A DNA stretch of 64,000 nt from Vulcanimicrobiota bacterium (lineage in GTDB: Bacteria > Vulcanimicrobiota > Vulcanimicrobiia > Vulcanimicrobiales > Vulcanimicrobiaceae): positions 62,001 through 126,000 of the forward strand of contig PMSI01000007.1 of the NCBI GenBank assembly GCA_003168375.1, written 5' to 3'. Shown piece by piece: positions 43,636 through 48,361 of the stretch. Every line of letters starts with the position of its first letter. The first letter of the stretch is position 1. A program made the translations under genes and the position numbers. The notes under the pieces were generated by a model that worked only from the letters and a program-made list of their open reading frames with translations, did not search any database and was not told the origin of the DNA.

Positions 43636-44685
43636 GTGTTCGACCCGTATCTGCTTGCCAAACCGTTCCTGCACGCGCTCGACCCCGAAGACGCGCACGA
43701 GCTCACACTGTGCGCGCTCGAGATGAACGTCGTCCCCGGCCAGCCGCGCGGCGACGATCCGATCCTCGCGACGTCGCTGTTCGGTCGCCGGTTGACCAAT
43801 CCGGTTGGGCTCGCGGCCGGGTTCGACAAGGACGGCCGCGTCTACGAGCGGATGGGTGCCCATGGTTTCGGGTTCGCCGAGATCGGCGGCGTCACGCCGC
43901 TCGCGCAGAAGGGCAACCCGCGGCCGCGCGTCTTCCGCCTTCCCGAGGACGGTGCCGTCATCAACCGGATGGGGTTTCCGAACGAAGGCGCCGACGCGCT
44001 CGAGCGGCGGCTGCGCCGCAAGGGCCGGCCCGAGATCGGCTTCGGAATCAACCTCGCCTCGAACGCCGACAGCGCCGATCCCGCCGACGATTTCGTTCGG
44101 CTCGCGCGGCGCTTCGCGCACTATGCCGACTATCTCACGCTCGACGTCTCGTGCCCGAACACGGCGAACGGACAAGTCTTCCTCGACCCCGCCCGGCTCG
44201 CCGACCTGCTCGCGCGCATCGCCGCGATCGACTGGGAATCGAACCGTCCGACGCTGGTCGCAAAGCTTTCGCCCGACGCCGAGGACGCGCTGCTCGAACG
44301 GCTCGTCGAGACGCTTCTCGCGGCGCGCATCGACGGGATCGTCGTCGCCAACACGACGCGTCAGCGCCCGCCCGGGCTGCGCAGCTATCACGCGCGCGAA
44401 GCGGGCGGCCTGTCGGGGACGCCGCTGTTCGCGCTGTCGAGCGCGACGCTCGCGCGCGTGCGCACGCTAACGGGGGGAACCGTTCCGCTGATCGCGGTCG
44501 GCGGAATATCGAGCGGTGCCGACGCGTACGCGATGATCCGCGCCGGCGCTTCAGCCGTGCAGATCTACACGGGGCTGATCTACGCGGGAACGGCGCTCGT
44601 GACCGGCATCAAGCGCGAGCTCGCAGTGCTGCTCCGCCGCGACGGCGCCGGCGCGCTCGCGGAGGCGGTCGGCGCCGCTACTTGA
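43636..44685 (+). CDS. pyrD: Dihydroorotate dehydrogenase, class 2 (quinone)
   Basis: A 349-residue membrane-associated flavoenzyme that oxidises dihydroorotate to orotate with quinone. The N-terminal amphipathic segment FDPYLLAKPFLHALDPEDAHEL is the class 2 membrane-docking extension. FMN-site landmarks are NPVGLAAGFDKDG, GFGINLASN and VGGISSGADAY. The catalytic Ser lies in DVSCPNT, as in class 2. GTG at 43636 is the first start after the family boundary. Its 3' end overlaps the next convergent gene by 8 bases. Confidence 0.94.
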   Translation: MFDPYLLAKPFLHALDPEDAHELTLCALEMNVVPGQPRGDDPILATSLFGRRLTNPVGLAAGFDKDGRVYERMGAHGFGFAEIGGVTPLAQKGNPRPRVFRLPEDGAVINRMGFPNEGADALERRLRRKGRPEIGFGINLASNADSADPADDFVRLARRFAHYADYLTLDVSCPNTANGQVFLDPARLADLLARIAAIDWESNRPTLVAKLSPDAEDALLERLVETLLAARIDGIVVANTTRQRPPGLRSYHAREAGGLSGTPLFALSSATLARVRTLTGGTVPLIAVGGISSGADAYAMIRAGASAVQIYTGLIYAGTALVTGIKRELAVLLRRDGAGALAEAVGAAT

Positions 44686-45145
44686 CCGCGCGGAACAGGA
44701 ACGAGCCGCCGATCTTGTGCGCCATGGTGTGGATGTCGCCGCGCATCGAGCGCAGGTCGCGGTCGAGCGCGCTCATCCCGGTCCCCATCAGTTTCAGCTT
44801 GCCGTCCATGGCGCCCAAGCGCTGCTCGGTCGCCGCCAGCCGGCCGTTCGTGCCGTCGAGTTTAACGTTCGTCGTGCCGAGCGTCGCCGACATCGCCTGA
44901 AGATGCCGGTCGAGCGTGGTCAGCTGCGCTTGCATCCCCGCCAGGCGGTCGAGCTTTACGCTCATATCGTCGAGCTTGGCCATGCGCTGGGCGACGGAGC
45001 CGAGGGTCTGATTCATCATATGGAGGTTCGACAGGACGTCTGCCACGGCGAAGACCGCCGCTGCCAGGACGAGTGCCGCGACGACGGCCCCTACCCAGAG
45101 GATCCCCTGCTCGCGCCTCGCGAGGCGCCCCGCTGTTGATACCAT
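44678..45145 (-). CDS. Membrane-anchored coiled-coil protein
   Basis: A 155-residue protein with one N-terminal helix (about 15-38, ILWVGAVVAALVLAAAVFAVADVL) and a long heptad-type region rich in Leu, Met and Lys (MNQTLGSVAQRMAKLDDMSVKLDRL...TTLDRHLQAMSATLGTTNVKLDGTN...). It resembles MCP-like or LPXTG-free coiled-coil anchors of unknown role. The stop overlaps pyrD by 8 bases. Confidence 0.65.
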   Translation of the reverse strand: MVSTAGRLARREQGILWVGAVVAALVLAAAVFAVADVLSNLHMMNQTLGSVAQRMAKLDDMSVKLDRLAGMQAQLTTLDRHLQAMSATLGTTNVKLDGTNGRLAATEQRLGAMDGKLKLMGTGMSALDRDLRSMRGDIHTMAHKIGGSFLFRAVK

Positions 45146-45256: not shown

Positions 45257-45617
45257 GGGGCTGAGTAGTTTCGACGGGGAGATCCGTGGCCGACGTAAGC
45301 AGGCGGAGCTGTGAGCCCTCCTAAAACGATCACAAGCGTTTTACACGCGAACAACGAATACGCTCTCGCTGCCTAACCAAGTAGGTTAACAGCGACCGTC
45401 CGCGAGAGGTAGCCGGATCCATCTCGCAGGCGGTCATGAAGTCCGGCTAGGACGCGGAGATCTCTCCGAGAAGCGTCCGAAACTCAACCGGGGATGCTGC
45501 GCGGCTGATTCCTGTACCGAGAAGCTGACGCGCTCAAGATAAAATCGGTGCTGAGCCTGGAGAAAACGGCGGTCCGGCTTTTCGGACCCGGGGGGCGGCT
45601 CCCCGGCAGCTCCACCA
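45257..45617 (+). ncRNA. ssrA: Transfer-messenger RNA
   Basis: A 361-base tmRNA that tags and releases stalled ribosomes with SmpB. 5' GGGGCTG pairs with 3' CAGCTCC, followed by A and an encoded CCA (45615-45617). GAGTAGTTTCGACGGGGA is the D-arm consensus. The tag frame runs GCG AAC AAC GAA TAC GCT CTC GCT GCC TAA at 45347-45376 and encodes ANNEYALAA, ending in the ALAA degradation signal. The T-stem CCGGGG/CCCCGG (45588-45593/45601-45606) closes a GGCGGCT loop instead of the usual TTCRANY. One-piece, non-permuted gene. Confidence 0.93.
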
Positions 45618-45632
45618 CTACCCCAACGTGAT

Positions 45633-45690
45633 GCAACATCCCAATGACGCGCAAGACCGCCCAACGGCGGGGTAGTCATTGGGATGTTGC
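45633..45690 (+). terminator. Strong inverted repeat behind tmRNA (possible terminator)
   Basis: GCAACATCCCAATGAC at 45633-45648 is perfectly complementary to GTCATTGGGATGTTGC at 45675-45690, with a 26-base loop, followed by GTTTTG. It starts 16 bases after the tmRNA CCA and could terminate it. The right arm is also the first forward member of the CATTGGG repeat family. Confidence 0.5.
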
Positions 45691-45744
45691 GTTTTGTCAC
45701 TGGGCAGTCTCGCGTGCGCGGGGCTAGTCATTGGGCTGTCGCGC
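45633..45744. repeat. CATTGGG repeat cluster, left flank (R1-R4)
   Basis: R1 (inverted, 45633-45648), R2 at 45675, R3 at 45696 (GTCACTGGGCAGT) and R4 at 45727 (GTCATTGGGCTGT) share the consensus GTCATTGGGCTGT. Forward copies are spaced 21 and 31 bases apart. The same family recurs at 46459-46540 on the other side of the orphan coiled-coil gene. No coding function is evident. Confidence 0.65.
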
Positions 45745-45841
45745 AACCGTGCTTTTGCTAGAAGCGTCGTTACGGAGTACAAGGTGCCCTGGCCCTCGAC
45801 CGAATGGGCACCTGCCGAAAGCGGAGCCGACGCGCACATCG

Positions 45842-46447
45842 ATGCCTATCAGAAACGATGGCGATGCGATTGAGGAGGCTATAAGAGAGCTTCTGACGTC
45901 TCGCGCTCTTGAGAACGATTTGAGGAAGGCGATTGCAGCGCACAACGCTTCGTCTGATCCGGTCGAACGGGCGGAGTTGCGTGCCGCCGCCGGGAGACTC
46001 TCGCACGAGCTTCATGCGATAAGGGTCGAAGGGCGCCTATCTCAGCAACTACTCGAAGTGTGGCGAGCAGCGCGCGAGGATCCGAGCGTGATGCGACGCC
46101 TGCAGGACGCATATTCATCGGCGAATCCGCAAATGGCGGACTTCGAAATCCGAAAATCGTCGTGGGACGGCGAGATAAGTTACGAAGAGTTGCACCTGTT
46201 GGGCACTCAACTTGACGAACTCGAAGCGACGATGCGCCTTGCCGAAAATGAGGCGGAGCGCTCCGCGCTCGAAAGCCGCGTCGAGGCTCTCAGGACGCAG
46301 GTAAAGGCCAAACGGGCGATGGTCCTCGAGGAAGAGGAGCGCTGGTGGCGTCAGACAGGCGAAAGAGAGTATCGAGCGGAGTGGGAGTTCGATGAACCAC
46401 CGCACGCTGTCGGGCCGTGGCCGGGACCGTTGGATTCGGACGAGTAG
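45842..46447 (+). CDS. Orphan coiled-coil protein between repeat clusters
   Basis: A 201-residue, highly charged helical protein. Residues 20-60 and 90-170 are rich in Glu, Arg, Leu and Ala, with heptad character (AIAAHNASSDPVERAELRAA, ELEATMRLAENEAERSALES, VEALRTQVKAKRAMVLEEEE). The C-terminus is acidic and Pro-rich (EFDEPPHAVGPWPGPLDSDE). No signal peptide or known family is seen. ATG at 45842 (MPIRND...) is chosen because the longer frame upstream runs through the repeats. Lower GC than its neighbours. Confidence 0.55.
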   Translation: MPIRNDGDAIEEAIRELLTSRALENDLRKAIAAHNASSDPVERAELRAAAGRLSHELHAIRVEGRLSQQLLEVWRAAREDPSVMRRLQDAYSSANPQMADFEIRKSSWDGEISYEELHLLGTQLDELEATMRLAENEAERSALESRVEALRTQVKAKRAMVLEEEERWWRQTGEREYRAEWEFDEPPHAVGPWPGPLDSDE

Positions 46448-46458
46448 GCCGCCGGAAG

Positions 46459-46540
46459 GCCATTGGGCTGTTAGCGCTCGAGTCCGAGAACCATTGGGCT
46501 GTTCGAGGCCCTTGGGCGGTCGCCAGTCATTGGGATGAAG
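46459..46540. repeat. CATTGGG repeat cluster, right flank (R5-R8)
   Basis: R5 at 46459 (CCATTGGGCTGTTAGCGC), R6 at 46490 (CCATTGGGCTGTTCGAGG), R7 at 46508 (CCTTGGGCGGTCGCC) and R8 at 46526 (GTCATTGGGATGAA). Spacings are 31, 18 and 18 bases. All are in the same orientation as R2-R4. The 31-base spacing is shared with R3-R4 on the left flank. Confidence 0.65.
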
Positions 46541-46658
46541 CCCCACTACCTGGAAGAACGCGCGCAAGCGCGTTTTTTCGTTCTTATCGCCCCTCTCGCG
46601 CGCCGAGCGGCGGGTGCGCAGGGAAGTACGGCCGCGCCGGCAGACTTGCATCCGAATC

Positions 46659-47360
46659 GTGCGACAAGAACTTCCGGCTGCGCGGGCGTGGGGCTTCGGG
46701 CTGGCCCCGAAGATCATCCTCGGAATCGGCGCCGGGTTCATGTTCGGGTTCGCCGTGCTGCTGTTCAGCATTCCGCTGATCGCGGCCCCGGTCGACGCGA
46801 CGAGCCTTTGGATCGTCGACGGCACCGGCGCCGTCTTGCTCGGATTCGCGTGCTTTTTCGTGTTCGGTCTGATCGCGCTGGCTCGCAGCCGCATCAGCAT
46901 CACCGGTACCACGCTGCACGCGACGATCCCCGATCATCATAACTGGTTGCTCGTCCCGAGTTTTCGGAGCGTCGCGGTCGATCTAGGACAGGTTCGCTCG
47001 GTCGACCGGCGCGAAGAAGCCGTGCGCGCGTTCGGGTTCACGACGATGCGCCGGTCGCTCTCGATCGTGACCGTCAGCGGGGAGCGTATCGGCCTGTTCA
47101 GCAACACGGAGAACGCCGTCGGGCAGATGCCGATCGCCGAGATCGCCGCAGCGATCGCCGCCGGCGCGGGCATCGGGGTCACCGACGATGGCTTGGTGCT
47201 GTCGCGCGCCGCCGGTCTCTACGGCGCCGCCTCGTCGGCCTGGACGGAAACCCCGCTCGACGCGGCAGGCGCCGCGAAGGTCCGGCGCGCCGCTGCCCGG
47301 ACGGCGCAGGTCGTCGCCGCCGTGCTGCTCCTCACCCTCGTCGTCCGCGCCTGCACCTGA
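46659..47360 (+). CDS. Membrane protein with possible PH-like domain
   Basis: About 233 residues with two N-terminal helices (about 16-40 and 52-72), a soluble middle (about 75-190: RISITGTTLHATIPDHHNW ... SFRSVAVDLGQVRSVDRREEAV ... RSLSIVTVSGERIGLFSN) that has the alternating pattern of bacterial PH/DUF304-type domains, and a C-terminal helix (QVVAAVLLLTLVVRAC). GTG at 46659 is preferred over GTG at 46614 because the added N-terminus is Arg-rich and unlike the rest. Function unknown. Confidence 0.55.
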   Translation: MRQELPAARAWGFGLAPKIILGIGAGFMFGFAVLLFSIPLIAAPVDATSLWIVDGTGAVLLGFACFFVFGLIALARSRISITGTTLHATIPDHHNWLLVPSFRSVAVDLGQVRSVDRREEAVRAFGFTTMRRSLSIVTVSGERIGLFSNTENAVGQMPIAEIAAAIAAGAGIGVTDDGLVLSRAAGLYGAASSAWTETPLDAAGAAKVRRAAARTAQVVAAVLLLTLVVRACT

Positions 47361-47400
47361 GCGGCGGCTCAATCTCTTTCATTCGTCGTCGGCAACAGCC

Positions 47401-47437
47401 CAACGACCGGCGACCACCCGGCACTGCCTGGTCGTTG
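47401..47437. terminator. Possible hairpin between convergent genes
   Basis: CAACGACC (47401-47408) and GGTCGTTG (47430-47437) form an 8-bp stem around a 21-base loop in the gap between two convergent genes. There is no T-tract, so termination is only a guess. Confidence 0.3.
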
Positions 47438-47471
47438 AGGCGTTGCGTCGCGTCGGGGAAAGAAGCGGATC

Positions 47472-48143
47472 TCAGGCCGAGGGGGATCCCGCTTGGTATT
47501 CGACTTCGCGCGCGAGGATCGCGAGCGCGGCGCGGGCCTGGTTCTGGATGTCGGTTGCCGTCAGGCCGTTCGCGAGCGTCGTCGGATCCGTCGCGCCGAC
47601 GGCGCTCGTCGAGCCGGATGCGTCCGTCGTGGAAGGCGCGCTCGAGGAAGATGAGGCCGACCCGCCGCCGCCATCGTGATGGTGGCGTCCCGAGTGAGCG
47701 CTCTGTGCTTTCTGCACGTCGGATTGGAGCGTCGCTTGCTGTGTGGGCGTGAGTATCGCGTTGATCTGCTGTTGGACGGTCGAAGGATCCGTGCCGGCGC
47801 TCTGCGCTTGTTGCAGGATGCCCTGGATCTTCGTCTTCTGATCGTCCGTCAGGTTGAGGTTTGCGAAGGGATCCGCGGGCGGGGTCTGCTGTTGCTGCTG
47901 CAGAGCCTGAAGGTCGGACTGCAGCGTCTTTTGCTGATCGGTCGTCAGGACACCGTTGATTTGCTTCTGGACGTCGGCCTGCGAGAGCCCCTGACTCTTG
48001 GCCTGATGCAGGATCGCTCGGATCTTCGCGCGCTGGTCCTCGGTGAGATTGAGGTTCGCGAAGGGGCGCAGCGACTGCGAGCCGTTGGAAGTGCCGTACA
48101 GGGACGACGCTCCCGTCAAGCTCGTGCTTTGGATGCCGCTCAT
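47472..48143 (-). CDS. Duplicated LTxxQ-repeat (Spy/CpxP-like) protein
   Basis: A 223-residue protein with two near-identical 50-residue units: PFANLNLTEDQRAKIRAILHQ... and PFANLNLTDDQKTKIQGILQQ..., each followed by QxxINxxLTxxQQxTLQSD. LT(E/D)DQ and LTxxQQ are the paired motifs of Spy/CpxP-type periplasmic chaperones. Between and after them are Gln-rich and Ser/His/Gly-rich stretches (SGRHHHDGGGG). No signal peptide is visible at the N-terminus, unlike Spy. ATG overlaps the stop of the small membrane protein upstream (ATGA). Confidence 0.62.
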   Translation of the reverse strand: MSGIQSTSLTGASSLYGTSNGSQSLRPFANLNLTEDQRAKIRAILHQAKSQGLSQADVQKQINGVLTTDQQKTLQSDLQALQQQQQTPPADPFANLNLTDDQKTKIQGILQQAQSAGTDPSTVQQQINAILTPTQQATLQSDVQKAQSAHSGRHHHDGGGGSASSSSSAPSTTDASGSTSAVGATDPTTLANGLTATDIQNQARAALAILAREVEYQAGSPSA

Positions 48144-48361
48144 TGTGGTGAACTGCCTTTCACGATGGTGTCGATGCCGAAGCCGGGCGACACGATGCGC
48201 CGGCTCCTGAGAAGGTCATCGGCCGCGATCCTTGGACCGGACTGGGGCCGGCCTGGGACGTGCGAGGCTAAGAGCATCGCGTACGCCATGGTGAAAAAAC
48301 AAAGAGCAGTCGCGGCTGCCGAGACGAGGAGCACGCCGAGGAGCCGCTTCAGCCACACCAT
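48140..48361 (-). CDS. Small single-span membrane protein (73 aa)
   Basis: A 73-residue protein with one hydrophobic helix (about 6-31, LLGVLLVSAAATALCFFTMAYAMLL) and a soluble tail of about 40 residues. ATG at 48361 is chosen because the longer frame runs antisense into the acetyltransferase gene. Its stop overlaps the LTxxQ-protein start. Probably functions with that protein, but no family is recognised. Confidence 0.5.
   Translation of the reverse strand: MVWLKRLLGVLLVSAAATALCFFTMAYAMLLASHVPGRPQSGPRIAADDLLRSRRIVSPGFGIDTIVKGSSPQ

Follow-up and report, generated by a model that had tools for sequence, protein, structure and literature searches.

What is the degenerate 13-mer that recurs on both sides of a small orphan gene, close behind the tmRNA gene (ssrA) of a Vulcanimicrobiota bacterium, and how did gene and repeats come to lie there? 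Integration next to tmRNA is well known. An earlier reading of the same DNA (the original prediction) had described eight copies of the 13-mer, four on each side of the gene, and had named an integrated cassette, a regulator-binding array and a family of hairpin RNAs as its possible explanations. We analyzed the locus within a 64,000-nucleotide stretch of one contig (the window), in the context of the 4.43-Mb genome to which it belongs (G000) and of the ssrA loci of related genomes.

A repeat cluster unique within the genome

A motif scan allowing up to three mismatches recovers all eight copies within 908 bases (45633-46540; Table 1), and the spacings between neighboring copies that had been described as shared prove exact, namely 31, 31, 18 and 18 bases. 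The repeat units form islands of 13-17 nt, separated by spacers of 18-52 nt that are mutually unrelated. Across the whole genome the 13-mer has 47 matches at up to two mismatches, 7 of which fall inside the interval, where the rest of the genome would lead to an expectation of about 0.008. The copies are thus not scattered over the genome, and their cluster is unique within it. The original prediction was correct as to the clustering but not quite right that there are no copies elsewhere in the window, because an inverted copy with one mismatch lies outside the interval (47395-47407, minus strand) as the 5' arm of another hairpin.

Two familiar kinds of array fail to fit the locus, in agreement with the original prediction. 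A CRISPR array would comprise identical repeats of 20 bp or more with equal spacers, which the short, degenerate repeats and their uneven spacing do not provide. An integron cassette would carry an imperfect attC hairpin behind its gene and belong with an IntI integrase; here the only hairpin is perfectly palindromic and precedes the gene, the copies on either side are lone arms, and those of the right array form no hairpin.

Table 1. Coordinates of the features at the ssrA locus, as positions in the window.
Feature	Position	Strand	Remarks
ssrA (tmRNA)	45257-45617	+	Rfam RF00023, 107.9 bits; alignment to G004 stops at 45617
CCA end of ssrA	45615-45617	+	left edge of the insertion
Direct repeat CCACTACC, left copy	45615-45622	+	possible target duplication or attachment core
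Intrinsic terminator of ssrA	45629-45698	+	arms 45633-45648 / 45675-45690, then GCGTTTTG
13-mer copies, left	45636-45648 (-), 45675-45687, 45696-45708, 45727-45739		
Weak inverted ninth copy	45656-45668	-	3 mismatches; inside the hairpin loop
Further 3'-arm copies of the left array (two)	45696-45708, 45727-45739	+	interval 45696-45739
Cargo gene	45842-46447	+	orphan 201-aa helical/coiled-coil protein; third-position GC 0.65
Right array, four 3'-arm copies	46459-46471, 46490-46502, 46508-46520, 46526-46538	+	interval 46459-46538
GCCCCA	46540-46545	+	putative right end of the segment; common to the G002 segment
Direct repeat CCACTACC, right copy	46543-46550	+	
Second intrinsic terminator, CGCGCGCAAGCGCGTTTTTT	46551-46580	+	
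Decayed hairpin of the terminator family	47391-47447	+	contains copy 47395-47407 (-)

The repeat belongs to the ssrA terminator as its 3' arm

The tmRNA gene that had been placed upstream of the cluster is matched by Rfam with a high score (Table 1); ARAGORN misses it despite that score. Only 12 bases behind ssrA stands the 16-bp perfect arm pair of the original prediction, in which 16 of 16 positions pair and which a GCGTTTTG tail follows. The hairpin folds at -42.7 kcal/mol (z -6.6). Hairpins of the same family lie directly after the CCA of ssrA in relatives, namely GCAACATCCCAGCGAC/GTCGCTGGGATGTTGC with TTTTT in G001 and AAACATCCCAGCGAC/GTCGTTGGGATGTTT with TTTT in G004, and G007 is alike. 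When six such hairpins are compared in an alignment made by hand from the arms, with a uniform loop inserted and one base deleted in each of two rows, 8 of the 16 stem pairs are altered on both sides and 94% of the cells remain paired. A stem with a T run behind an RNA gene, conserved among relatives and marked by paired changes, demonstrates that the arm pair is the intrinsic terminator of ssrA and, therefore, that the 13-mer is the 3' arm of this terminator.

Beyond the terminator pair, the remaining copies, two to the left of the gene and four to its right, consist of the 3' arm alone and all point the same way. These observations do not support a family of hairpin RNAs, since the ssrA terminator is the one real hairpin and each extra copy is a lone 3' arm. 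The right array folds no better than shuffled sequence apart from the terminator downstream of it (z -0.9). The sequence of that downstream terminator, CGCGCGCAAGCGCGTTTTTT, is found directly behind ssrA in G008 and behind the left array in G002. The decayed hairpin farther downstream adjoins an LTXXQ-type gene, which is the position of the ssrA terminator in G004, and is probably the displaced older terminator of ssrA, shifted by 1.8 kb.

An insertion at the 3' end of ssrA

The closest relative is G004 (pyrD 92% identical, ssrA 95%), which like the other relatives compared is a draft genome. Aligned with the window, it matches as far as position 45617, where ssrA ends, and again from 46596 onward; the 978 bases between are missing from G004. 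Their absence identifies the array, the orphan gene and the second array, by sequence comparison, as an insertion of about 0.93-0.98 kb at the exact 3' end of the tmRNA gene. The relatives do not share the region of gene plus repeats. The segment is flanked by the direct repeat CCACTACC, which consists of CCA and 5 bp and is weak as evidence because repeats of at least 8 nt arise in 2.9% of shuffles. Downstream, the ssrA 3' end is not repeated at greater length; the best 20-mer has 7 mismatches, and CCACTACC alone is repeated.

The cargo gene had been described as being of lower GC, and its third-position GC content indeed stands well below the 0.81-0.89 of neighboring genes. It is absent from all 59 other genomes searched, and searches of GTDB contigs, IMG/VR, phages and plasmids yielded no relative of its product, the GTDB and IMG/VR scans reaching close relatives only. 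Structure prediction yields a helical protein with low confidence (pTM 0.37), and the predicted fold has no PDB match with E<=0.001.

The neighborhood varies in other ways as well. In the stretch 46596-48265, the gene at 46614-47360 and the LTXXQ-type gene at 47472-48143 have swapped order in G004 (L065) with unchanged orientation. The order in G004 is ssrA, LTXXQ gene, membrane gene, acetyltransferase, such as a cyclic permutation of the block would produce; this swap could be a draft-assembly error. A small coiled-coil protein gene directly upstream of ssrA (44678-45145, minus strand) is present in G001 and G007 and missing from G004.

Comparable segments and arrays at ssrA in relatives

A congener, G002, carries a segment of the same layout with different cargo at the same ssrA site. 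Its order is hairpin, arm copy, CGCGCGC terminator, MntP-type gene (PF02659), arm copies (two clear, one doubtful) and GCCCCA. Measured to GCCCCA in each case, it comprises 942 bases vs 928 bases in the window. Between these two cases, on which the likeness of the ends rests, 20 of 31 and 19 of 31 end positions agree; the cargo is unrelated. After GCCCCA, G002 continues with ATGTGATGCTC, which together with the preceding CCA repeats 14 bases (CCAATGTGATGCTC) of the ssrA end, and then with an older hairpin. Two other genes are flanked in G001 by a pair of nearly identical terminators, which lie about 970 bases from each other. With its segment absent from G004, its left edge at the exact end of ssrA and its analog in G002, the integrated cassette of the original prediction is supported; that the repeat is an arm of the ssrA terminator was no part of that prediction.

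Extra 3'-arm copies at ssrA also occur in other species, each with its own arm: ATTATTGGGAAGA in G002, GAAGTGGATTTTTGGAC in G014 and AAGTGGATTTTGCGTG in G034 (two further copies in each of the latter, some of those in G034 with T-rich tails), and CATTTCAGTACTTA in G106 and G107, where three copies are identical and the hairpin, like its 5' arm, is poor. No second array was found in the DNA read from G014, G034, G106 and G107, and an array therefore need not flank a gene. Behind ssrA, most relatives have one hairpin only. In searches of G000 and its relatives, the cluster arrays of G000, G002 and G106/G107 were seen at ssrA only.

These arrangements were compared with 497 kb of control DNA taken from the same genomes as the ssrA genes. 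Exact hairpins of 11 nt that have an additional 3' arm no more than 70 nt away follow 3 of 79 ssrA genes vs none in the control DNA; with a 10-nt hairpin, the counts are 4 of 79 vs 2. Direct repeats within 250 nt after ssrA were found in 8 of 77 cases vs 6 of 512 windows from the same loci (p ~1e-4), the control windows being largely coding. As a further control, rnpB is uninformative, because 3 of 30 cases score high through one repeat common to the neighboring region. A different direct repeat, of 25 nt with 28-nt spacing, occurs some 190-240 nt after ssrA in G109 (L103).

The 206 nt directly after ssrA are common, at 85% identity, to G005 (L066) and G028 (L075), which belong to different genera, and diverge thereafter. 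This is the sole sharing between genera so close to ssrA; possible reasons are transfer of a module adjacent to ssrA, or a contaminated draft genome. On the other side of ssrA, pyrD lies upstream in the window and in 7 of the 8 congeners fetched, the eighth locus being cut by a contig end. Among G000, G001, G004 and G007, the stretch between ssrA and the acetyltransferase gene is of varying length and, as far as it was read, of varying content. Because a similar insertion with a different gene occurs in a related species, the 3' site of ssrA seems to collect small gene cassettes.

Search for a recombinase or parent element

No tyrosine integrase (PF00589) was found near ssrA in 11 genomes of the genus, and no recombinase gene is among the genes named in the window's interval. 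No parent element was found in G000 or its relatives. An IS21 or other active element was rejected as the source, given the missing parent and the occurrence of the arrays at ssrA only. A source in phages or other bacteria was likewise rejected: the motif pair, searched in GTDB and IMG/VR, returned ordinary tandem repeats and chance-like matches inside or beside genes, and the protein is without a match. Within the genus, the end motif of the segment was inspected at four other places, which appear chance-like and lack a matching hairpin.

A tyrosine recombinase gene begins less than 100 bases from a contig end, at nearly the same distance, in three genomes of the genus (G000:C5:98-601, G001:C5:99-602 and G002:C6:95-598).

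Origin of the segment

The reading we favor, whose prospects we judge to be evenly balanced, is that of a cassette at ssrA which carries one gene but no integrase and has multiplied terminator arms, as recombination sites or their scars, at its boundaries. The cassette would have entered precisely behind the last base of ssrA, separating the tmRNA gene from its older terminator, and would supply the new ssrA terminator to which the 13-mer belongs. We infer that the partly decayed direct arm copies inside both cassette ends are most likely the sites of a recombinase acting in trans, or descendants of such sites; alternatively, they may be scars that successive gains and losses left at one terminator. 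Several observations speak against the cassette: the arm copies left and right of the gene all point in one direction, whereas transposon ends are inverted; no recombinase, transposase or integrase gene was found near ssrA in the genus; no parent element was found; and the flanking CCACTACC repeat measures just 8 bp.

A serious rival, although a minority possibility in our estimate, is that replication slippage at the terminator hairpin generated tandem extra 3' arms with neither recombinase nor function, and that the orphan gene landed independently inside or beside the array. Recent local duplication would account for the match of the copies to each species' own terminator arm, and for the arrays of G014, G034, G106 and G107, which have no cargo between copies. 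It fits less well with repeat islands set in unrelated spacers in place of clean tandem units, with two species that have arrays on both sides of cargo and outer ends that are alike, and with the failure to find a hairpin with an extra 3' arm elsewhere in the 497 kb, even though terminators are common.

The segment could instead be a remnant or passenger derivative of a transposon with multi-repeat ends (IS21-like or Tn7-like) that has lost its transposase, which we consider improbable. Its left end would be the inverted copy at 45636-45648 with the weak loop copy, and its right end the four plus-strand copies. Each end of the IS21 elements in relatives (L137, L138) does bear a pair of 13-nt repeats, and the 8 bp of the flanking repeat would suit a target duplication of the IS21 type. 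The outermost copies, TGATGCAACATCCCAATGAC and GTCATTGGGATGAAGCCCCA, are mutually inverted (17 of 21 positions) with TG...CA edges, and a genome search with this end finds both. However, the inner left copies are direct, three of the left copies being oriented like the right ones, and the CCACTACC repeat is weak. G000 moreover has no true IstB-like protein, its three matches resembling DnaA/DnaC-type ATPases; the motif cluster is absent elsewhere in the genome and always lies at ssrA; and the motif pair yielded no transposon in GTDB or IMG/VR. Quite unlikely, finally, is a role of the copies as functional sites, either for protein binding near the promoters of two genes or as reserve 3' arms that re-form the ssrA terminator in readthrough transcripts. 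Spacings in five arrays group near 18-21 and 27-32 bases, near whole helical turns, and some G034 copies have T-rich tails. Against both roles, the copies of the right array are located past the orphan gene, from where they cannot serve ssrA, and their region folds no better than shuffles; furthermore, the G106/G107 copies are identical while their 5' arm is poor, and most relatives manage with a single hairpin.

Returning to the integrase-less cassette, a broader proposal would be a family of such single-gene cassettes that recombine at the ssrA terminator hairpin, each insertion replacing the terminator and leaving 3'-arm copies, so that the terminator would be the attachment site of a cassette-collecting hot spot in the genus and its relatives. 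We advance this extension as speculative and rather unlikely. Should the arms indeed be recombination sites, this would account for the accumulation of sub-kilobase segments, each with one gene and no integrase, downstream of an important RNA gene whose termination stays intact, and the arms could be used as a marker to trace similar cassettes in other genomes.

Comparison with known systems

The hairpin with its T run at the left end of the segment is an intrinsic tmRNA terminator. Unlike a normal terminator, which has one 3' arm, it is accompanied by six more copies of that arm over 860 bases, and in the literature searched we found no description of boundaries made of multiplied host transcription-terminator arms. 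Mobile insertion cassettes (MICs) contain one passenger gene and no transposase, and have related ends with different cargo. The window segment likewise has one passenger gene, no transposase, and ends related to those of a segment with differing cargo; it departs from MICs, a term named in PMC6542083, in having no parent insertion sequence that we could find and several copies on both sides in one orientation. Cis-mobilizable elements, which are integrase-less and keep attL and attR (discussed in PMC3146451), share with it the cargo between two end regions, the missing recombinase and the integration hot spot, but the att sites of the window segment are putative, and no integrase-bearing partner with the same ends was found.

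A close parallel is offered by Dehalococcoides, in which ssrA-specific genomic islands are stacked, 15 of 31 are without an integration module, 20-bp copies of the ssrA 3' end serve as boundaries, and a serine recombinase module, DsiAB, exists (PMC3146451). The window segment is similar in its target at the ssrA 3' end, its absence from a relative, its missing integration module and, probably, the downstream stacking of segments; in Dehalococcoides, too, cargo varies between strains. It differs in that the copy of the ssrA end amounts to CCA and 5 bp alone in place of about 20 bp at the far boundary, in its size of less than 1 kb, in that no recombinase was found (neither PF00589 beside ssrA in the 11 genomes of the genus nor among the named genes of the window's interval), and in the multiplied terminator arms at its ends. 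Given the shared target, the probable stacking and the missing recombinase on the one hand, and the short boundary copy, small size and multiplied arms on the other, we call the segment a variant of tmRNA-targeted insertion and not a member of the Dehalococcoides island family.
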